A stretch of DNA of 64,000 nucleotides from Muricoccus nepalensis (lineage in GTDB: Bacteria > Pseudomonadota > Alphaproteobacteria > Acetobacterales > Acetobacteraceae), in NCBI RefSeq assembly GCF_006438825.1, contig NZ_RCZP01000002.1, forward strand, positions 32,568-96,567. The letters run 5' to 3'. The number at the start of each line of letters is the position of its first letter. The first letter of the stretch is position 1. Position numbers and translations under genes: made by a program. This document shows, in pieces, positions 1-10,600 of the stretch. The notes beneath the pieces were generated by a model. The model did no database searches and was not told the origin of the DNA. It saw nothing but the letters and a program-made list of their open reading frames with translations.

Positions 1-120
1 GCGTCCAGGGCGACCGCGCCCAAGGCGCGCGGTACCGCGAAGGCGCCCGCCGCCCGGCCGCGCGCGGGGGCCGCGCCGCGCCGGACGCCGCCGCGCAAGC
101 CGCCCACCCGCCGCTCCTGA
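1..120 (+). CDS. C-terminal tail of a basic Ala/Pro/Arg-rich protein (partial)
   Basis: The first 39 codons are open in frame 1 and end at a TGA (118-120). They encode a tail of Ala, Pro, Arg and Lys with almost no hydrophobic residues, like the disordered C-terminal extensions seen on many alphaproteobacterial DNA- or RNA-binding proteins. The start lies outside the window and no domain is visible, so no function is assigned. The only supporting evidence is the open frame, the biased composition and a strong hairpin directly after the stop. Confidence 0.4.
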   Translation, partial: ASRATAPKARGTAKAPAARPRAGAAPRRTPPRKPPTRRS

Positions 121-124
121 GGCG

Positions 125-149
125 CGCGCCCGGGTTCCAACCGGGCGCG
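125..149 (+). terminator. GC-rich hairpin, possible terminator
   Basis: A perfect 9-bp stem (CGCGCCCGG at 125-133, CCGGGCGCG at 141-149) encloses a 7-base loop. It sits 4 bases after the stop of the partial upstream gene and before the next start at 170. There is no T run after it, so efficient intrinsic termination is uncertain. Confidence 0.4.
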
Positions 150-169
150 GCGCGGCGCAGGATGGGGCG

Positions 170-1327
170 ATGCAACGCGCGCTTGTCCTCGGGGCCGGGA
201 TCATGGGCCTCTCCGCCGCCTGGGCGCTGGAGGCGGCGGGCCACGCGGTGACGGTCGTCGAGGCGGAGGCGGTGCCCAACCCGCGCGGCGCCTCGGTGGA
301 CGACCACCGCCTCATCCGCCACGCCTACGGGGCCGCGGCCGGCTACACGCGCATGGTGGACGAGGCCTACGCGGTCTGGGAGGACCTCTTCGACGCCCTT
401 GGCGAGCGGCCCTATGTCGAGACGGGGGTGCTCGCCCTCGCCGGCGGCGCCGCGGCGGAAGGGGACTGGTTCGGCGCCAGCCGGCACGCCCTGCTCGGGC
501 GGGGGATGGCCGCCGAGGACCTCCAGCCGGGCGCGCTGGAGGTGCGGTTTCCTTGGTTGCGCGGGGAGGGGCTGGCGGAGGGCTTCCACGCCCCGCGGGG
601 CGGCGTGCTGCTCGCGCGCCGGATCGTCGCGTCGCTGGCCCGGCACCTCGAGGGGCGCGGCGTCGCCTTCCGGCGGGCGCGGGCGACCGGCGTCGATCCC
701 ACCCGCGCGCGCCTAGCCCTCTCCGACGGCGCGGCGGTCGAGGGCGACCTCCTGGTCGTGGCCGCGGGACCCTGGGCGCCGCGGCTGCTGCCCGGCCTCG
801 CCGGCCGCGTCACGCCCTCGCGCCAGGTGGTGGTCTACTTGGAGCCACCCCCGGCGCATCGCGAGGCCTGGGCGCGGGCGCCGATGGTGCTCGACCTTTC
901 GGAGACCGGGGGCTTCTACGCCGTGCCGCCGGTCGCGGGCACGGGGCTCAAGATCGGCGACCACCGCTTCTCGCTCCGGGGCGACGCGGAGGACCCGCGG
1001 GAGGTCACCCCGGCGGAGCGCGACGCCATCCTCGCCCTCGCCCTGCCGCGGCTGCGCGACGCCGCCTCCTACCGGGTGACGGCGGCGCGGGCCTGCTACT
1101 ACGACGTGGCGGAGGGGGAGCGCTTCGTGGTGGAGCCCTTGTCGCCGCGCTGCGTGGTGATGAGCGGCTTCTCCGGCCACGGCTTCAAGTTCGGCCCGCT
1201 GCTCGGCCGCGCCGTGGCGGCCGCGCTCGGCGACCCCGCCCGCATGGCGGCGCTGCCGGGCTGGGCGGCGGGCGGCCCCGACGAGATCCGATTCCCGCAG
1301 CGATCACAGGAGGACGTCAGCGCATGA
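170..1327 (+). CDS. FAD-dependent amine oxidase, monomeric sarcosine oxidase type
   Basis: 385 aa, the usual length for DAO-family flavoenzymes that oxidise secondary amines such as sarcosine or N-methyl amino acids. An N-terminal GAGIMGLSAAW dinucleotide-binding motif (about residues 8-18) is followed by the DAO fold. Near residue 310 is ACYYD, at the place where monomeric sarcosine oxidase attaches its FAD through cysteine. Near the C-terminus SGFSGHGFKFGP matches the conserved flavin-contact loop. The start is the first ATG, after a GGGG stretch. The stop overlaps the next start as ATGA, so the two genes are probably translated together. The exact amine substrate cannot be read from the sequence. 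Confidence 0.85.
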   Translation: MQRALVLGAGIMGLSAAWALEAAGHAVTVVEAEAVPNPRGASVDDHRLIRHAYGAAAGYTRMVDEAYAVWEDLFDALGERPYVETGVLALAGGAAAEGDWFGASRHALLGRGMAAEDLQPGALEVRFPWLRGEGLAEGFHAPRGGVLLARRIVASLARHLEGRGVAFRRARATGVDPTRARLALSDGAAVEGDLLVVAAGPWAPRLLPGLAGRVTPSRQVVVYLEPPPAHREAWARAPMVLDLSETGGFYAVPPVAGTGLKIGDHRFSLRGDAEDPREVTPAERDAILALALPRLRDAASYRVTAARACYYDVAEGERFVVEPLSPRCVVMSGFSGHGFKFGPLLGRAVAAALGDPARMAALPGWAAGGPDEIRFPQRSQEDVSA

Positions 1328-3034: not shown

Positions 3035-4582
3035 ATGAACGCCCTCAGCCGCCCCTCCTTGCGACCTGAGAGGCCGCACGCTGTCATCATCGGGGCCGGG
3101 CCCGGCGGCCTCGCCTCCGCCATGCTCCTCGCCGCCCGGGGGCTTCGCGTCACGGTGCTGGAGAAGGACCGCGTCGTCGGCGGCCGCAGCCGGACGCTCG
3201 AGACGGCCGAGGGCTACCGCTTCGACCTCGGCCCCACCTTCTTCCTCTACCCCCGCATCCTCGGCGAGATCTTCGCGGAATGCGGCACGAAGCTGGAGGA
3301 GGAGGTGGAGCTCATCCGCCTCGACCCGCAGTACCGGCTCGTCTTCGAGGCGGCGGCGGGGAACGTCACCGTGGACGCGACGCCCGACCTTGCCCGGATG
3401 GAGCGGGAGATCGCCAAGATCGACCCGCGGGACGCGGCGGGGGTGCGCCCCTTCATGGAGGAGAACCGCCGCAAGCTCGCGGCCTTCCGCCCCGTGCTGG
3501 AGCGCGCCTTCACCAAGGCGACCGACCTGATGGCGCCGGACATGCTGCGCGCGCTGCCGTTGCTCAAGCCCGGCCGCTCCGTCGACCAGGACCTGCGCCG
3601 GCACTTCCGCGACCCGCGCACGCGCCTCGCCTTCTCCTTCCAGTCGAAGTACCTGGGGATGAGCCCGTTCCGCTGCCCCAGCCTCTTCACCATCCTCTCC
3701 TTCCTCGAGTACGAGCACGGCGTGTTCCACCCGCGCGGCGGCTGCGGCACGGTGGCGACCGCCATGGCGCGGGTCGCGGCCGACCTCGGCGTCGAGTTCC
3801 GGCTGGGCACCTCGGCCGAGCGCATCACCTTCGACGGCGACCGCGCGACGGGCGTCGAGGCGGGAGGCGCTCATATCCCCGCCGACTCCGTGGTGCTGAA
3901 CGGCGACTTCGCCCATGCCATGCCGCGCCTCGTGCCCGACGCCATCCGGCGGAAGTGGTCGGACAAGCGGATCGAGCGCGCGCGCTACTCCTGCTCCACC
4001 TTCATGCTCTACCTCGGCGTGGAGGGGGAGTTCCCGGGCCTCTCGCACCACTCGATCCTTCTCTCGGAAGGCTACCAGCGGAACATCCAGGACATCGAGG
4101 AAGGCATCATCCCGGAGACGCCCTCGCTCTACCTGCAGAACCCGAGCGCGACCGACGCGACCATGGCGCCGCCGGGGCACTCGAGCCTCTACGTCCTCGT
4201 CCCCGTGCCGAACCTGACGCACGGGCACGAGTGGACCGAGGCGGACACGGCGCGCTACCGCAAGCTGGCGCTCGACCGCCTGCGGGGCCTGGGCGTGCCC
4301 GATATCGAGGCGCGCATCCGCTACGAGCGCATCGTGACCCCCCGCGACTGGCGGGACGACTATGCCGTGGGTTATGGCGCGACCTTCAACCTCGCGCATG
4401 ATCTCCGCCAGATGCTGACCTTCCGGCCCGGCAACCGGTTCGGCGACACGAAGGGGCTCTACCTCGTCGGCGGCGGCACGCATCCGGGCTCCGGGCTTCC
4501 CGTCATCTACGAGGGCGCGCGGATCAGCGCCGACCTCCTGCTGCGCGACCTCGGCCGCGCGCCCGTCTCCACGAGGATCTGA
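3035..4582 (+). CDS. crtN: CrtN-like C30 carotenoid desaturase (diapophytoene/squalene desaturase family)
   Basis: 515 aa CrtI/CrtN-family FAD enzyme expected to introduce double bonds into a C30 backbone. N-terminal FAD motif is IIGAGPGGLASAM (about 18-30). Recalled Staphylococcus CrtN landmarks are present: FDLGPTFF near the N-terminus, YSCSTFMLYLGV, GYQRNIQDIEEG, then YVLVPVPN, and the C-terminal GGGTHPGSGLPVIYEGA that closes the flavin site. The ATG at 3035 is chosen because the FAD motif follows directly and a GGAG lies just upstream. The next gene starts 2 bases after the stop. With an HpnC-HpnD protein as the only prenyl-condensing enzyme nearby, the likely substrate is squalene or hydroxysqualene rather than diapophytoene; this is inference. 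Confidence 0.85.
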   Translation: MNALSRPSLRPERPHAVIIGAGPGGLASAMLLAARGLRVTVLEKDRVVGGRSRTLETAEGYRFDLGPTFFLYPRILGEIFAECGTKLEEEVELIRLDPQYRLVFEAAAGNVTVDATPDLARMEREIAKIDPRDAAGVRPFMEENRRKLAAFRPVLERAFTKATDLMAPDMLRALPLLKPGRSVDQDLRRHFRDPRTRLAFSFQSKYLGMSPFRCPSLFTILSFLEYEHGVFHPRGGCGTVATAMARVAADLGVEFRLGTSAERITFDGDRATGVEAGGAHIPADSVVLNGDFAHAMPRLVPDAIRRKWSDKRIERARYSCSTFMLYLGVEGEFPGLSHHSILLSEGYQRNIQDIEEGIIPETPSLYLQNPSATDATMAPPGHSSLYVLVPVPNLTHGHEWTEADTARYRKLALDRLRGLGVPDIEARIRYERIVTPRDWRDDYAVGYGATFNLAHDLRQMLTFRPGNRFGDTKGLYLVGGGTHPGSGLPVIYEGARISADLLLRDLGRAPVSTRI

Positions 4583-4584
4583 CC

Positions 4585-6204
4585 ATGGCAAAGGTTGCCG
4601 TCATCGGCGGGGGCCTGGGCGGCCTGGCCGCCGCCTGCGTGGCCCAGGCCCGCGGGCACCAGGTGACGCTGTTCGACAAGAACGAGTGGCTGGGCGGCAA
4701 GGCCGCCGTGCTGCACCTCGACGCGCCGGCCACGCCCGCCGGGCGCAACGGCGGCAGCTTCCGCTTCGACATGGGGCCGACCATCCTGACGGTGCCGCGC
4801 GTGCTGCGCCGCATCTTCGCGGAAGCGGGCCGCGACCAGGCGCGCGACCTGCCGCTGATCCGCCTCGACCCGCAGTGGCGCTGCTTCTTCGAGGACGGCA
4901 CGCGGATCGACCTCTCCGAGAACGTCGACGAGATGGCGGCGAAGATGGACGCCTTCGCGCCCGGCAACGGCGAGGGCTACCGCGCCTTCCAGCGCGAGTC
5001 CGAGAACCTGCACCGCATCTCCGAGGGCTTCTTCTTCTGGAAGTCCGTCGAGGACCTGACGGACACGATGGACTTCCGGTCAAACATGCAGGCCGACACG
5101 CTCAAGGACGTGATGGCGCTGCGGATGGGCAAGACGGTGGCCAAGGTCATCCGCGGGCACGTGCCGGACGCGCGGCTGGCGCAGATGCTGGACCACTACA
5201 CGCAGTATGTCGGCTCCTCGCCCTACCTCGCGCCCGCGGTCATCTGCGGCATCGGCGACATGCAGGCGAGCGAGGGGATCTGGTACCCGGTCGGCGGCAC
5301 GCGCGCGGTCGCGGAGGGGCTGGCGAAGCTCGCGGAATCGCTCGGCGCGGAGCTGCGGCCCGCGACGGAGGTGACGGGGCTCGACCTCCGCGACAACGGC
5401 ACGCGGGTGGCCGGCGTGGTCGCCAAGGGGGAGACGATCCCCTTCGACGCCGTGATCTCGAACATGGACGCGATCCGCACCTACAAGGAGCTGGTCGGCG
5501 GCAAGACGGGGCGCAAGTACGAGAAGAAGGGCTTCAAGCCGGCCTGCTCGGGCGTCGTGCTCTATCTCGGGCTGAACAAGCGCTACGAGCATCTCGGCCA
5601 CCACGACTTCGTCTTCTCGCGCGACGCGGAGGAGGAGTTCGACGCCATCTACAAGAAGGGCATCCCCGCGCCCGACCCCACCGCCTACCTCGCGGCGCCG
5701 TCCGGCACGGATCCCTCCGTCGCGCCCGATGGCGGGGAGGCGCTCTACGTCCTCGTGCACACGCCGCATCTCCGCCCCGGGCAGGACTGGTCGAAGATGC
5801 TGCCGGAGTACCGGCAGGTGATCCTCGACAAGCTGAAGCGCACGGCCGGCATGGAGGACATCGAGGAGCGCATCGTGGTGGAGCGGGCGCTGACGCCGCA
5901 GGACATCCACGAGCGCTACAAGGTGCTCGACGGCGCCATCTACGGCCTCGCCTCGCACGGGGCCTTCCTCGGCGCCTTCAAGCCGGGCAACCGCTCGCGC
6001 CGGGTGAAGGGGCTCTACCTCGCGGGCGGGGCGGCGCATCCGGGCCCGGGGATGCCGATGGTGATGATGTCGGGCTGGATCGCGGCCGACGCGCTCGACC
6101 AGGACATGGGCGGGCCCGGCATGTCGCCGGAGGCCCGGCGCGCCGGGACGCGGGACGCGCTGCTCGCGCGGATGGAGGCCTCGATGGCCCCGGCGGCGGA
6201 ATAG
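4585..6204 (+). CDS. crtP: CrtP-like C30 carotenoid oxidase/desaturase
   Basis: 539 aa second CrtI-family flavoprotein. It starts with VIGGGLGGLAAAC. It resembles Staphylococcus CrtP (oxidation of the terminal methyl of diaponeurosporene) more than CrtN: FDMGPTILTVPRV, DPQWRCFFEDGT, YVGSSPYLAPAV, VISNMDAIRTYKELV and GGAAHPGPGMPMVM all have counterparts there. Predicted role is terminal oxidation of the C30 polyene to aldehyde or acid, giving a group the next enzymes can glycosylate. It is separated from crtN by 2 bases and from the acyltransferase by 3, so it lies in mid-operon. A second desaturation role instead of oxidation cannot be excluded. Confidence 0.82.
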   Translation: MAKVAVIGGGLGGLAAACVAQARGHQVTLFDKNEWLGGKAAVLHLDAPATPAGRNGGSFRFDMGPTILTVPRVLRRIFAEAGRDQARDLPLIRLDPQWRCFFEDGTRIDLSENVDEMAAKMDAFAPGNGEGYRAFQRESENLHRISEGFFFWKSVEDLTDTMDFRSNMQADTLKDVMALRMGKTVAKVIRGHVPDARLAQMLDHYTQYVGSSPYLAPAVICGIGDMQASEGIWYPVGGTRAVAEGLAKLAESLGAELRPATEVTGLDLRDNGTRVAGVVAKGETIPFDAVISNMDAIRTYKELVGGKTGRKYEKKGFKPACSGVVLYLGLNKRYEHLGHHDFVFSRDAEEEFDAIYKKGIPAPDPTAYLAAPSGTDPSVAPDGGEALYVLVHTPHLRPGQDWSKMLPEYRQVILDKLKRTAGMEDIEERIVVERALTPQDIHERYKVLDGAIYGLASHGAFLGAFKPGNRSRRVKGLYLAGGAAHPGPGMPMVMMSGWIAADALDQDMGGPGMSPEARRAGTRDALLARMEASMAPAAE

Positions 6205-6207
6205 GGG

Positions 6208-7002
6208 ATGCCTGGGCCGTCCCCCGTCACGCTGCGGGACGCGCGGCTCTTCGCCTTCTTCCACGTCGTCTTCTCCCGCCACTTCCGGCGCGGCATGGGG
6301 GCGCTGCGGGTGCCGGCCTGGGGCCTCCCGCAGGAGCACCGCGGGCGGCCGCTGATCGTGCTGGCGAACCACCCCTCCTGGTGGGACGGGGTGGCCTTCA
6401 TGCTCCTCTCGGCCCGGCTGTTCCCGTCGCGCCATGTCTTCATCCCCATGGCGGCGGAGGCGCTGCGCAAGTACCGCTTCATGCGGCGCCTCGGCGTCTT
6501 CGGGATCGAGCCGGGGGCGCGCGGGGCGGCGGCCTTCCTCCGCACGGCGACCGAGGTGCTGGCCGCGCCGCGCGCGATGCTCTGGATGAACGTGCCCGGG
6601 CGGTTCCAGGACGTGCGGGAGCGGCCGGTGGCCATCGTGCCCGGGGTGACGCGGCTGGCCGAGATCGCGCCCGGCGCCATCGTCCTGCCGCTGGCGCTCG
6701 ACTACGTCTTCTGGACCGAGAGCCGGCCGGAGATGCTGGCCGCCTTCGGCCCGCCCATCGAGGCGGCGGCGCTGCTGGCGCTGGACCGCGACGCGCGGGA
6801 GGAGGCGCTGCGGGAGGCGCTGACGGCCACGATGGACCGGCTGGCCGAGGAGGCGATCACGCGCGACGCCGCCCGCTTCGAGGTGGTGGCCGAGGGCGCG
6901 GAGGGCATGGGGGGCCTCTACGACCTCTGGCGCCGCGCCCGCGCCCTGGCCCGTGGGCAGCGCTTCGACCCCCGGCATGTGCGCGACGCCAAATCCGGCT
7001 AG
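6208..7002 (+). CDS. PlsC-type acyltransferase of the carotenoid operon
   Basis: 264 aa LPLAT-fold acyltransferase. The catalytic NH-x4-D box is present as NHPSWWDG (about residues 53-60). The second box, usually EGTR in PlsC enzymes, reads NVPGRFQD here, a variation seen in acyltransferases that act on substrates other than lysophosphatidate. Position between CrtP and a glycosyltransferase suggests it acylates a sugar on the C30 carotenoid. That would be the role filled by the unrelated CrtO in staphyloxanthin synthesis. The assignment is contextual. The ATG follows the upstream stop by 3 bases, so translation is probably coupled. Confidence 0.75.
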   Translation: MPGPSPVTLRDARLFAFFHVVFSRHFRRGMGALRVPAWGLPQEHRGRPLIVLANHPSWWDGVAFMLLSARLFPSRHVFIPMAAEALRKYRFMRRLGVFGIEPGARGAAAFLRTATEVLAAPRAMLWMNVPGRFQDVRERPVAIVPGVTRLAEIAPGAIVLPLALDYVFWTESRPEMLAAFGPPIEAAALLALDRDAREEALREALTATMDRLAEEAITRDAARFEVVAEGAEGMGGLYDLWRRARALARGQRFDPRHVRDAKSG

Positions 7003-7047: not shown

Positions 7048-8142
7048 GTGATCGACGTCCTCTCCCTCCTCATCGCGACCTTTCCCGCGAGCATGACGGC
7101 CGCGAACCTCGTCCTGCTCGGCCGCGCGGCGGGGGCGCCCGCGCCCGGGGCACTCGTCTCGGTTCTTATTCCCGCGCGCGACGAGGCCGCGAACATCGGC
7201 GCCTGCCTGGACGCCGCGCTGGCCAGCGCCGGGGTGCCGATCGAGGTGCTGGTGATGGACGACGGCTCCACCGACGGCACCGCGCGGATCGTCGAGGCAC
7301 GGGCCGCGGCCGACCCGCGGCTGCGCCTCCTCCAGGCGCCGCCGCTGCCGCCGGGCTGGACGGGCAAGGTGCACGCCTGCGCCCGCCTGGCCGAGGCCGC
7401 GCGGGGCACGCATTTCCTCTTCATCGACGCCGACGTGCGCCTGGCGCCCGACGCCGCGGCGCGCATGGCGGGGCACGCGGCGGCGAACGGCCTCGCCCTC
7501 GTCTCCGGCGTGCCGCGCCAGCGGATCGGCAGCCTCGGTGAGGGGGTCACGGTGCCCGCCATCAACCTCATGATGCTCGGCTACCTTCCCGGCGCCGGGC
7601 GGGCCTTCACCAACCATCCCGCCATGGCCGCGGCCTGCGGGCAGCTCCTGATGGCGGAGCGCGGCGCCTACGAGGCCGTGGGCGGGCACGCCGCCTTCCC
7701 GCGGCGGCTGCACGACGCGCTGGCGCTGTCGCGCAACCTCCGCGAGGCCGGGCACCGGACCGAGGTGGTGGACGGCAGCCCGCTCGCCGATTGCCGGATG
7801 TATTCGGGCTTCGCCGAGGCCTGGGCCGGCTTCGCCAAGAACGCGCGGGAGGGCATGGCGACGCCGCTCGGCCTGCCGGTCTGGACGGTGCTGCTGGGCG
7901 CGCCGCACCTGCTGCCCTGGCTGCTGCTGCCGAGCCCCTGGGCGATCGCCGCCCTGATCCTCTCCTTCCTCACCCGCGCCGCCATCACGCTCCGCGTGCG
8001 CGAACCGCTCTGGACCATTCCCTTGCATCCCGTGACCGTCGCCGTGGCCCTGGCCATCCAGTGGACCGCCCTCATCCGCTCCGCCCTCGGCCGCCCCGCG
8101 GGGTGGAAGGGCCGCGCCTACCAGCCCGTGGACGTCCCGTGA
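7048..8142 (+). CDS. Membrane GT2 glycosyltransferase, CrtQ/HpnB-like
   Basis: 364 aa family-2 glycosyltransferase. A short hydrophobic N-terminus precedes the GT-A domain: SVLIPARDEAANI, DDGSTDGT (71-78), PPGWTGK (101-107) and the DAD metal site (127-129). The PPGWTGK element is typical of the CrtQ and HpnB groups that modify terpenoid lipids. Two or more hydrophobic segments near residues 275-345 anchor it in the membrane. The predicted job is transfer of a sugar to the oxidised C30 carotenoid. Start is GTG at 7048 with a G-rich ribosome site at 7035-7040; an ATG at 7041 is out of frame. The stop overlaps the next start as GTGA. Confidence 0.78.
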   Translation: MIDVLSLLIATFPASMTAANLVLLGRAAGAPAPGALVSVLIPARDEAANIGACLDAALASAGVPIEVLVMDDGSTDGTARIVEARAAADPRLRLLQAPPLPPGWTGKVHACARLAEAARGTHFLFIDADVRLAPDAAARMAGHAAANGLALVSGVPRQRIGSLGEGVTVPAINLMMLGYLPGAGRAFTNHPAMAAACGQLLMAERGAYEAVGGHAAFPRRLHDALALSRNLREAGHRTEVVDGSPLADCRMYSGFAEAWAGFAKNAREGMATPLGLPVWTVLLGAPHLLPWLLLPSPWAIAALILSFLTRAAITLRVREPLWTIPLHPVTVAVALAIQWTALIRSALGRPAGWKGRAYQPVDVP

Positions 8143-9761
8143 GCGGCGACGTCGTGGAGGCGGGCGTCGCCGCGGGCGCGCCGACGCGCGGGCCGGATTC
8201 CGAGAACTTCCCCGTTGCCTCGCGCCTGCTGGCGCCGGCGGTGCGGGGGCGGGTTCTGGCCTTCTACCGGGTCGTGCGCCTGTCGGACGACATCGCGGAC
8301 AGCCCGGACCTCGACCCCGCGGAGAAGCTGCGGCGCCTGGACGCGATCGACGCCGCGCTGGACGGGGCTCCGGGCGTGCCCGAGGCGGCGGCGCTGCGCG
8401 CGAGCGGCGCGGGGGTGGAGGAGGCGCGGGCCATGCTGACCGCCTTCCGCCGCGACGCCCGCAACGAGGGCTGCGAGGACTGGGCGGCGCTGGTGGACTA
8501 CTGCGCGCATTCCGCCGTGCCCGTGGGCCGCATCCTGCTCCGCCTGCACGGCGAGGATGCCGGGCCGGTGCCGGCGGCGGACGCGCTCTGCACCGCGCTG
8601 CAGGTGCTGAACCACCTGCAGGACATGGGCGAGGACCGCGACGCCATCGGCCGGATCTACCTGCCCCGCACCTGGATGGACGAGGTGGGCGGGGAGAGGG
8701 CGGTCTTCACCGAGGCCGCGCCGCGCCGCGCGCTGCTGGACGCGCTGCTCGACCGCTGCGAGGCGCTGCTGGACGTGGCCTCCGCCCTGCCGCATCGGCT
8801 CCGCAGCCGCCGCCTGGCGCTGGAATCGGCGACGACCATCGGCTGCGCCCGCCGCCTGCTGGCGCGGCTGCGCGCGGCGGACCCGATGGCCGGGCGCGTG
8901 GCGCTGAGCAAGGCCGACACGCTGGCGGCGCTGCTGGCCTCGCCGCGCCCGGCCTCGGACGCGGCGGTCGTGCGGGCGGCGGTGGCGCGGGCGGGGTCCT
9001 CCTTCTCGCGCGGCATGGCCTCGCTGCGGGGGGAGCGGCGGCGGGCGCTCTACGCCGTCTACGCCTTCTGCCGCGCGGTGGACGACATCGCCGACGGCGC
9101 CGCGCCCTTCGGGGAGAAGCGCGGCTTCCTGGCCGAGTGGCGCGCGAAGCTGGACGCGCCGGACTGCGCCCTCTCGCGCGAGCTGGCCTGGGCGCGGGCG
9201 CGCTTCGGGCTGCCGCGCGAGGAGTGCGTCGCCATGATCGAGGGCATGGAGACCGACGCCGCGCCGCGGCTGCGCCTGCCGGACGAGGCGGCGCTGGAGC
9301 TCTACTGCCGGCGCGTGGCGGGCAGCGTCGGCGCCATGTCGGTGCGCATCTTCGGCGCGCCGGAGGCGGTGGAGTTCGGGCTCGCGCTCGGCCGCACGCT
9401 GCAGCTCGTGAACATCCTCCGCGACATCGACGAGGACGCGGCGCGGGACCGGGTCTACATCCCCCTCTCCTGGCTCGGCCCGGACGCGGAGCCGGCGGCG
9501 CTGCTGGAGCGCCCCGACCTGCACGAGGCCTGCCACCGGCTGCTGGGACGCGCGGAGGCGGGCTTCGCGGCGGCGGAGGCGGAGCTGGCGCGCGCCGGGG
9601 CCGGCGCGGGGCCGCTCCGCCCGGCGCGGGTGATGATGTGGGCCTACCGACGCATCCTGGACCGGCTCATCGCCCGCGGCTTCCACCCGCCGCGCCTCCG
9701 CCCGCGCCTGGGCACGGCCGAGCGCGCGCGGCTGGCGGCCATGGCGCTCGGCTGGGGGTAG
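8139..9761 (+). CDS. hpnCD: HpnC-HpnD fusion: hydroxysqualene synthase joined to presqualene diphosphate synthase
   Basis: One uninterrupted 540-aa frame holds two complete squalene/phytoene-synthase-family domains. Residues about 21-265 are HpnC-like (SENFPVASRLL, first Asp motif DDIAD at 50-54, second motif LQDMGED at 160-166). Residues about 280-535 are HpnD-like (SFSRGMASL, DDIAD at 315-319, NILRDIDED at 425-433). By family knowledge HpnD condenses two farnesyl diphosphates to presqualene diphosphate and HpnC converts it to hydroxysqualene; HpnE, not in this window, reduces that to squalene. HpnC and HpnD are normally separate adjacent genes. Start GTG overlaps the previous stop. No stop codon lies between the halves; internal GTGs near 8970 have no clear ribosome site. 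The fused enzyme replaces CrtM in a C30 carotenoid operon. Confidence 0.88.
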   Translation: MSGDVVEAGVAAGAPTRGPDSENFPVASRLLAPAVRGRVLAFYRVVRLSDDIADSPDLDPAEKLRRLDAIDAALDGAPGVPEAAALRASGAGVEEARAMLTAFRRDARNEGCEDWAALVDYCAHSAVPVGRILLRLHGEDAGPVPAADALCTALQVLNHLQDMGEDRDAIGRIYLPRTWMDEVGGERAVFTEAAPRRALLDALLDRCEALLDVASALPHRLRSRRLALESATTIGCARRLLARLRAADPMAGRVALSKADTLAALLASPRPASDAAVVRAAVARAGSSFSRGMASLRGERRRALYAVYAFCRAVDDIADGAAPFGEKRGFLAEWRAKLDAPDCALSRELAWARARFGLPREECVAMIEGMETDAAPRLRLPDEAALELYCRRVAGSVGAMSVRIFGAPEAVEFGLALGRTLQLVNILRDIDEDAARDRVYIPLSWLGPDAEPAALLERPDLHEACHRLLGRAEAGFAAAEAELARAGAGAGPLRPARVMMWAYRRILDRLIARGFHPPRLRPRLGTAERARLAAMALGWG

Positions 9762-9771
9762 GGCGGGGCCG

Positions 9772-10428
9772 TCAGGCGGCCTCGCGCAGGGCGGCGCGGA
9801 TGGCGGCGGCCATGGCCTCGGATTGCTCGGCGCCGGAGACGATCACCTGCCGGCCGAGGACGACGGCCGGCACGCCCCCGAGCCCCGCGGCGCGGGCGGC
9901 GTCCTCCGCCACCTCCGCCGCGCCCTCGTCGCCCGCCAGCATCGCGGCGGCGCGGCCGGGGGGCAGGCCGGCCGCGTCCCCGATCGCCGCCAGCACCGCG
10001 GGGTCGCCGATGTCGCGGCCCTCCGCGAAGTAGGCGGCAAAGACGGCCTCGGCCACGGCGTCGGCCAGGGCCGGCCCGCCCTCCCGCGCGGCGAGGCGGA
10101 TCAGGCGGTGGCTGTCGAGGGAGTTCGGCGTGCGCTCGATCCGCTCGAAGTCGAAGGGCAGGCCGTCCTTCGCCCCCTCCGCCGCCAGGCGCGCGTCCAG
10201 CGCGCGGCCGCGCTCCACGCTGCCGAACTTGCGGGCGCGGTACTCGGCGCGCGGCATGCCGCCCGGGGGCATGGCGGGGTTGAGCTGGAAGGGGTGCCAC
10301 TGGCGCGCGAGGCGGGCGCCCTCGCCGGCCAGGACCGCCAGCGCCGCGTCCAACCGGCGCTTGCCGACCCAGCACCAGGGGCAGACCGTGTCCACCACGA
10401 CGAGCAGCGTCGTCCCCTCTTCCGGCAT
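9772..10428 (-). CDS. DsbA-family oxidoreductase, FrnE/HCCA-isomerase-like
   Basis: 218 aa thioredoxin-fold protein with a CPWC active site in DTVCPWCWVGKRR, about 15 residues from the N-terminus. A helical insertion and a C-terminal GVPAVVLG (cis-Pro) motif follow, as in FrnE-like enzymes. There is no signal peptide, which fits cytoplasmic action as a disulfide isomerase or glutathione-dependent isomerase. The ATG at 10428 is preferred over an upstream one at 10503 because AAGGAAGG lies just before it and the core fold starts there. It converges on the carotenoid operon with a 10-base gap. Confidence 0.8.
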   Translation of the reverse strand: MPEEGTTLLVVVDTVCPWCWVGKRRLDAALAVLAGEGARLARQWHPFQLNPAMPPGGMPRAEYRARKFGSVERGRALDARLAAEGAKDGLPFDFERIERTPNSLDSHRLIRLAAREGGPALADAVAEAVFAAYFAEGRDIGDPAVLAAIGDAAGLPPGRAAAMLAGDEGAAEVAEDAARAAGLGGVPAVVLGRQVIVSGAEQSEAMAAAIRAALREAA

Positions 10429-10600
10429 GGCGCGGCCCTTCCTTTCCCGGTGCCCGGGGATGCAACCACGCGGCGCGCGCGGCGGCCACGGGGCCGGTTT
10501 CACCGCTTGGCGAGCCGCGGGCCCGCTTCACCGGTTCTTGAGAGAAAGCTCCCCCTTATTGCCGCGTTGTGGCTGCGGACGGATTTTCGGGTGGAACGAC

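Follow-up and report, generated by a model that had tools for sequence, protein, structure and literature searches.

The genes for hydroxysqualene synthase (hpnC) and presqualene diphosphate synthase (hpnD) are already known to occur as one fused gene. A 2017 study (PMC5462960) found the fusion in the majority of subdivision-2 Acidobacteria genomes; its BLAST searches added some Actinobacteria (Actinopolyspora, Blastococcus) and Rhodospirillum centenum. We analyzed an hpnC-hpnD fusion in a 64,000-nucleotide stretch of Muricoccus nepalensis (contig NZ_RCZP01000002.1, positions 32,568 to 96,567; hereafter the window). A sequence-only reading of this DNA had been unsure whether the architecture had been described, and that doubt is settled by its presence in print. 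As in the published fused HpnCD, both domains of the window's protein lie in one open frame of about twice the size of either. The Acidobacteria fused gene, however, stands in an hpnC-D-E group studied for hopanoid synthesis, whereas the window's gene ends a C30-carotenoid cluster. The sequences of PMC5462960 themselves lie outside our trees.

The separate HpnC, HpnD, and HpnE proteins of hopanoid operons (TIGR03464, TIGR03465, and TIGR03467) resemble the window's system in domains, motifs, gene order, and predicted reactions. They differ in that HpnC and HpnD are two polypeptides, and those of Roseomonas marmotae (275.1 and 317.9 bits) exceed the equivalog cut-offs of their families, while the halves of the window's protein fall under them. 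In Methylobacterium extorquens (PMC10448405) and Azospirillum brasilense (PMC13274349), squalene from HpnCDE likewise goes to CrtN/CrtP-type enzymes, a glycosyltransferase, and an acyltransferase. Pigment and hopanoids draw on a common precursor in M. extorquens, as we propose for the window genome, but hpnC, hpnD, and hpnE are separate genes there (PMC10448405). In A. brasilense, hpnCDE lies at another locus than the pigment cluster, unlike the window's fusion; its deletion abolishes the pigment, and no fusion is reported there (PMC13274349). Searching the literature, we found no report of the fusion in Roseomonas-like bacteria and none of squalene gene sharing between two clusters, although Santana-Molina 2020 (MBE) and 2022 (PNAS) may cover part of both.

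We find that the fused gene closes a C30-carotenoid cluster, which is a new aspect of this fusion, and that the hopanoid operon of the same genome holds neither hpnC nor hpnD (Table 1). Our reading, which we hold with considerable confidence, is that the gene encodes a two-domain enzyme derived from adjoining hpnC and hpnD genes, supplying hydroxysqualene for C30 carotenoids and for the hopanoid operon. By homology, and after the reactions of Pan et al. 2015 as summarized in PMC5462960, the HpnD half would condense two farnesyl diphosphates to presqualene diphosphate, which the HpnC half would convert to hydroxysqualene. A separate HpnE would then yield squalene, to be consumed by the CrtI-family enzymes and by squalene-hopene cyclase. 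The fusion ends a C30-carotenoid cluster, so pigment synthesis would be its first use. It would supply the hopanoid operon as well, in which shc and hpnE are retained, since no HpnC or HpnD besides it turned up in the genome. Judged from this complementary gene content, the fusion most likely makes hydroxysqualene for pigments and hopanoids alike.

Table 1. Positions of the fused gene, its parts, the genes of its cluster (window coordinates), and the hopanoid operon of the window genome (G000).
Feature	Position	Strand	Remarks
Fused hpnC-hpnD gene, 540 aa	8139..9761	+	GTG start, stop included; domain matches and homologues spanning the junction
HpnC half, residues 20-267, hydroxysqualene synthase type	8196..8939	+	TIGR03464, 212 bits alone
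HpnC half, first Asp motif, D50 D51 D54	8286..8300	+	invariant in 43/43 rows
HpnC half, second Asp motif, D162-D166	8622..8636	+	invariant in 43/43 rows
Linker, residues 268-281, short, variable	8940..8981	+	lies between the two domain matches
HpnD half, residues 282-534, presqualene diphosphate synthase type	8982..9740	+	TIGR03465, 214.3 bits alone
HpnD half, first Asp motif, D315 D316 D319	9081..9095	+	invariant in 43/43 rows
HpnD half, second Asp motif, D429-D433	9423..9437	+	invariant in 43/43 rows
CrtI-family desaturase 1 (putative CrtN/CrtP type)	3035..4582	+	TIGR02734, 509.9 bits; conserved in cluster
CrtI-family desaturase/oxidase 2 (putative CrtN/CrtP type)	4585..6204	+	TIGR02734, 392.9 bits; conserved in cluster
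Acyltransferase of carotenoid cluster	6208..7002	+	PF01553; conserved in cluster
Family-2 glycosyltransferase	7048..8142	+	PF00535; 4-nt overlap with fusion start; conserved in cluster
Hopanoid operon hpnA-hpnB-hpnE-shc-hpnG	G000:C65:452500-472400 (L153)		no hpnC or hpnD; hpnH and ispH on opposite strand; same contig as the fusion, about 420 kb away

The split of the squalene genes between pigment and hopanoid clusters was read in stretches around both clusters of 16 genomes, the window's included, which were picked for fused and unfused cases and not at random. Five complementary patterns appeared. In the window genome, G396, and G372, the pigment cluster holds the fusion and no hpnE, and the operon runs hpnA-hpnB-hpnE-shc with no hpnC or hpnD. 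The pigment cluster is of the same make in G202, G205, and G162, where the operon runs hpnA-hpnB-hpnD-hpnE-shc. Six genomes (G003, G312, G166, G216, G278, and G063) carry the fusion together with hpnE in the pigment cluster and none of the three squalene genes beside shc; five of these operons read hpnA-hpnB-shc, and G312 has neither hpnA nor hpnB beside shc. In G016, the pigment cluster has hpnE and no fusion, and the operon has hpnC and hpnD and no hpnE. Finally, G102, G159, and G236, all of the window's genus, have a pigment cluster lacking both the fusion and hpnE, and a complete operon. All 16 genomes keep one hpnC and one hpnE in the stretches read, in one place or the other. Genome-wide searches agree for the 12 fused genomes (hpnC and hpnE), and the other four were covered genome-wide for hpnC only.

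In the operon of the window genome, about 20 bp separate the hpnB match from the hpnE match, and a tblastn search (E 1e-10) detected neither hpnC nor hpnD in the 20-kb hopanoid-operon stretch. Inspecting the squalene/phytoene-synthase matches of this genome, we found no second hpnC. Apart from the fusion, they comprise a crtB-like gene and a distant match whose neighboring gene is superoxide-dismutase-like, the neighbors being judged by eye. The crtB-like gene lies outside the window (G000:C98, L001) and adjoins a crtI-like gene, also by eye; on this gene content, the window genome probably makes C40 carotenoids alongside the C30 ones.

The cluster itself has the order crtN1-crtN2-acyltransferase-glycosyltransferase-fusion, with the fusion last. 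Of 20 fused contexts read in the same family, 17 share this order, as does a plasmid of Microvirga ossetica. Genes of this kind are named CrtN, CrtP, CrtQ, and CrtO after PMC10448405. The fusion is followed by hpnE in 19 of the 20 contexts, and by an aldehyde dehydrogenase in most. The window contains all components of the C30 squalene-route cluster except hpnE, which sits in the distant hopanoid operon. Among 67 fused loci from named genome records, 55 have at least two of the four cluster genes adjoining, two belong to hopanoid operons, and the other 10 are short or undecided. A C30 product is supported by Roseococcus thiosulfatophilus, since this organism has the complete cluster (L175) and, according to a review (PMC12654162), contains a C30 carotenedioate and its diglucosyl ester.

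The claim of the sequence-only reading that complete HpnC and HpnD share a single 540-aa frame, each with its own pair of Asp motifs, is borne out by domain matches and by homologues that also have both in one frame. Third-position GC stays at 0.95-1.00 throughout the gene, the junction included, and the GTG start overlaps the stop codon of the upstream glycosyltransferase gene by 4 nucleotides. Pfam marks two squalene/phytoene-synthase stretches in the protein, and both NCBIfam models are covered over their full length (positions 5-264 of 267 for TIGR03464 and 2-262 of 267 for TIGR03465). The motifs were read from an alignment of 43 fused proteins, the window's included, from which the fusions of G001 and of the family codes f33, f91, and f133 were left out; every motif aspartate is invariant there. 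The stretch from P249 to F289, which spans the junction, measures 37-41 aa in Acetobacteraceae rows and 41-53 aa in the other rows. We also checked for a loss of a catalytic motif in one of the halves, which the sequence-only reading had named as a result that would speak against it. Comparing the columns with 90% or more conservation among separate HpnC (61) and separate HpnD (64) proteins, we found no motif Asp altered; 9 HpnC and 13 HpnD columns differ in the window or in more than 30% of its clade's rows.

Three residues of the HpnD half, 396, 420, and 424, are Ser, Thr, and mostly Val in the fusions of the window's clade. At the matching positions, all 33 separate HpnD proteins compared have Ala, Ala, and Thr. 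Residues 420 and 424 sit just ahead of the second Asp motif of that half. An AlphaFold2 model of the fused protein had a mean predicted local distance difference test score (pLDDT) of 91.4 and a predicted template modeling score (pTM) of 0.90. In a structure look-up with it, the solved HpnC (4hd1) fell on the HpnD half (residues 270-520) and not on the HpnC half; by sequence, 4hd1 matches the HpnC half, residues 93-263. Eukaryotic squalene synthases align to the model at about 17..347, over the HpnC half and the first helices of the HpnD half, which may be a chance overlap of helices.

We searched genomes for the same architecture, as the sequence-only reading had proposed. In at least 90 of 397 same-family genomes, the window's included, one open frame uninterrupted by a stop matches the protein over its full length, with 45-93% identity apart from the window itself; four further matches among those listed were partial. 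The class sample (385 genomes) added at least 14 genomes with the two halves joined in a single frame; a further, partial fusion at a contig end was among the matches listed. Of 299 genomes sampled across the phylum, 58 matched at E <= 1e-30, and only the window genome was full-length without a stop among the matches listed; in G970 and G777, both halves are readable only through one stop. The 104 full-length fused genomes (90 from the family and 14 from the class) are therefore a lower bound.

Of the best 80 among 375 relatives in named genome records, 67 were fused, from Muricoccus/Roseomonas, Siccirubricoccus, Roseococcus, Rubritepida, Falsiroseomonas, Neoroseomonas, Belnapia, Roseicella, Caldovatus, Humitalea, and others, as well as Microvirga and Niveispirillum. 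The 13 unfused ones comprised 12 hopanoid operons with two separate genes and one contig-end fragment. The fusion had no match in two genomes with pigment or genus ties to the window. G346 belongs to the window's genus and gave no HpnC-model match either; in G348 (L254), the glycosyltransferase of the pigment cluster is in two frames. A lost pathway or assembly gaps are possible in both.

To see what other squalene and hopanoid genes accompany the fusion, we searched 80 of the 104 fused genomes with family models, the 24 left out being more members of genera already in. The fusion is the top HpnC-model match in all 80, and other places reach at most 152.5 bits. Among 38 same-family genomes that lack a full-length fusion, by comparison, 34 carry HpnC as a separate protein, scoring 235.7-287.5 bits. 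Of the 80, three (G162, G202, and G205) have a separate HpnD that exceeds the cut-off; the next-best HpnD-model places outside fusions reach at most 199.2 bits, the crtB-like gene of the window genome being at 189 bits. HpnE was found in 78 of the 80 (E <= 1e-40; 18 candidates scored per genome), in 77 of them as a single match (a partial one in G035 and G088) and in one as two pieces. Squalene-hopene cyclase was found in 53. For the hopanoid branch of these 53, the search thus turned up no HpnC other than the fusion.

Several observations count against our reading of the fused gene. Taken alone, the HpnC half (212 bits) lies under the TIGR03464 equivalog cut-off of 250.45 and the HpnD half (214.3 bits) under the TIGR03465 cut-off of 278.6. 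The whole protein passes both (296.7 bits with the HpnC model and 300.6 bits with the HpnD model) only because the scores of two related stretches are summed, and a single place reaches the HpnC cut-off in 4 of the 80 fused genomes. Three of the 20 same-family contexts (L093, L100, and L105) show the fusion with hpnE only and no carotenoid genes in about 20 kb. HpnE was not found in two of the 80 genomes, G087, where the contig ends inside the gene, and G213, which we cannot explain. Squalene-hopene cyclase was not found in 27 of the 80 (21 of 66 from the same family), so hopanoid supply by the fusion is not general. This number fits badly with PMC8776678 (2021), which places hopanoid genes in all Acetobacteraceae type strains. 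In favor of hopanoid supply by the fusion, Muricoccus (Roseomonas) pecuniae DSM 25622 (G266 = L173; GCF_014199205.1), whose genus code is the window's, carries the fusion, and one bacteriohopanepolyol at 0.1 mg/g dry weight is given for this strain in PMC12583986, where no C30 hopanoids are listed. Its genome is outside the 80; the whole-protein search, which scored 3 of 23 candidates there, gave the fusion as its single match. A second hpnC in M. pecuniae is unlikely.

We built trees of the HpnC and HpnD halves from 83 rows each, omitting three duplicates and four loci for which no HpnD fragment was found; the two agree on the main point. The 31 fused rows that come from the window's family (G001 apart) and Microvirga group in one clade (100/95 and 100/99), which the fusions of family code f15 adjoin. 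Other fusions are scattered: G001 falls within the separate genes of its own family's hopanoid operons, the f51 fusion pair stands beside separate f51 genes, and the G596 fusion stands beside a separate f91 gene. Within the Alphaproteobacteria, the window's fusion lineage is separate from the hopanoid-operon fusions found. The fused/separate label requires eight changes on either tree, and six without eight long or uncertain rows; each of these may be a gain or a loss. On 36 rows (17 fused and 19 separate), chosen once the 83-row tree had been inspected, grouping all fusions found into a single clade was rejected (p 1.7e-12 and 4.5e-4).

The unfused relatives read have separate hpnC and hpnD, mostly adjoining in that order, which agrees with the sequence-only reading that they are normally two genes. 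The fusions read all keep this C-D order. HpnC thus comes first, as had been remarked, because the fusion preserves the operon order, and the fusion probably arose from adjoining hpnC and hpnD genes. In a tree of crtN1 plus crtN2, made by a quick method without bootstrap, the unfused clusters lie inside the fused ones: G102, G159, and G236 group with the fused G312 (Shimodaira-Hasegawa-like approximate likelihood ratio test [SH-aLRT] 96), and G016 and G348 with the fused G205 and G162 (100). This suggests that the fusion was lost from the pigment cluster at least twice.

In each of the seven Microvirga pigment clusters read (L091, L215, L217, L219, L220, L225, and L228), an S-adenosylmethionine-dependent methyltransferase gene lies between the desaturases, and ispH stands after hpnE. 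In family code f15 (L113, L115, and L261), a CrtI-family gene directly adjoins the hpnCD fusion in two genomes, one of which has an additional desaturase-acyltransferase-glycosyltransferase cluster without hpnCD.

The sequence-only reading had interpreted the fusion as a means by which the HpnD half would pass presqualene diphosphate straight to the HpnC half, so that the intermediate is not released; its observation is real, and its interpretation is partly supported. An advantage of such channelling could have driven repeated fusion. The label changes on the trees and the rejected single clade would fit with this, as would the short linker and the AlphaFold2 model, whose scores suggest a settled arrangement of the halves. 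Against it, the close relatives G102, G159, G236, and G016 use separate HpnC and HpnD, the crtN1 plus crtN2 tree suggests the losses described above, and adjoining genes of one pathway can fuse without channelling. We therefore regard channelling as the driving force as possible but rather unlikely. Since some close relatives have the fused version where others have the separate one, the fusion is not required for the pathway, and their interchange suggests that direct passage of the intermediate between the halves is not essential. A broader version, that a portable squalene module entered or formed in the C30-carotenoid cluster, displaced the operon's hpnC and hpnD, and ties hopanoids to the pigment operon, its repeated fusions being selected for direct presqualene diphosphate transfer, appears doubtful to us.

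Other explanations concern the product or the reality of the joined frame. If the fusion had turned into a direct, CrtM-like dehydrosqualene synthase, its HpnC half would no longer make hydroxysqualene. This is very improbable: the Asp motifs of the HpnC half are all invariant, HpnE, needed only for hydroxysqualene, accompanies nearly all of the 80 fused genomes, and 53 of these have the squalene-using cyclase while another HpnC was found in none. Free HpnD might be present in the cell besides the fused form, through an internal start or proteolysis. The junction has in-frame GTG codons (8970 and 8982), and nothing specific speaks against it; we still consider it very improbable. That a sequencing or assembly artefact joined two genes, for instance an error at 8940-8980 as the sequence-only reading had envisaged, can practically be dismissed, given the alignment of fused proteins and the same joined frame in at least 90 of 397 family genomes and in 67 of the best 80 named records. 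The two-domain hydroxysqualene synthase serving both lipids remains our preferred reading.

Two clusters for two different lipids would thus have one hpnC/hpnD/hpnE set between them, which is split differently in close relatives, and we consider this common gene set, together with the fusion's place in a pigment cluster, the part worth following. On gene content alone, the either-or sharing argues that the fused enzyme and the separate ones are interchangeable. The sharing predicts that a knockout of a pigment-cluster gene removes the hopanoids too. Hopanoid operons of Roseomonas-like bacteria that look incomplete need not be broken. Since the family cut-offs accept the fused protein only through its summed halves, automatic naming of fused proteins may mislead. 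The repeated fusions offer natural replicates for testing channelling.

One neighbor of the fusion deserves mention. The gene that follows it on the minus strand (9772-10503) has no NCBIfam match and occupies the place where most relatives have hpnE. From its CPWC motif, we take it to be presumably a DsbA-like protein.

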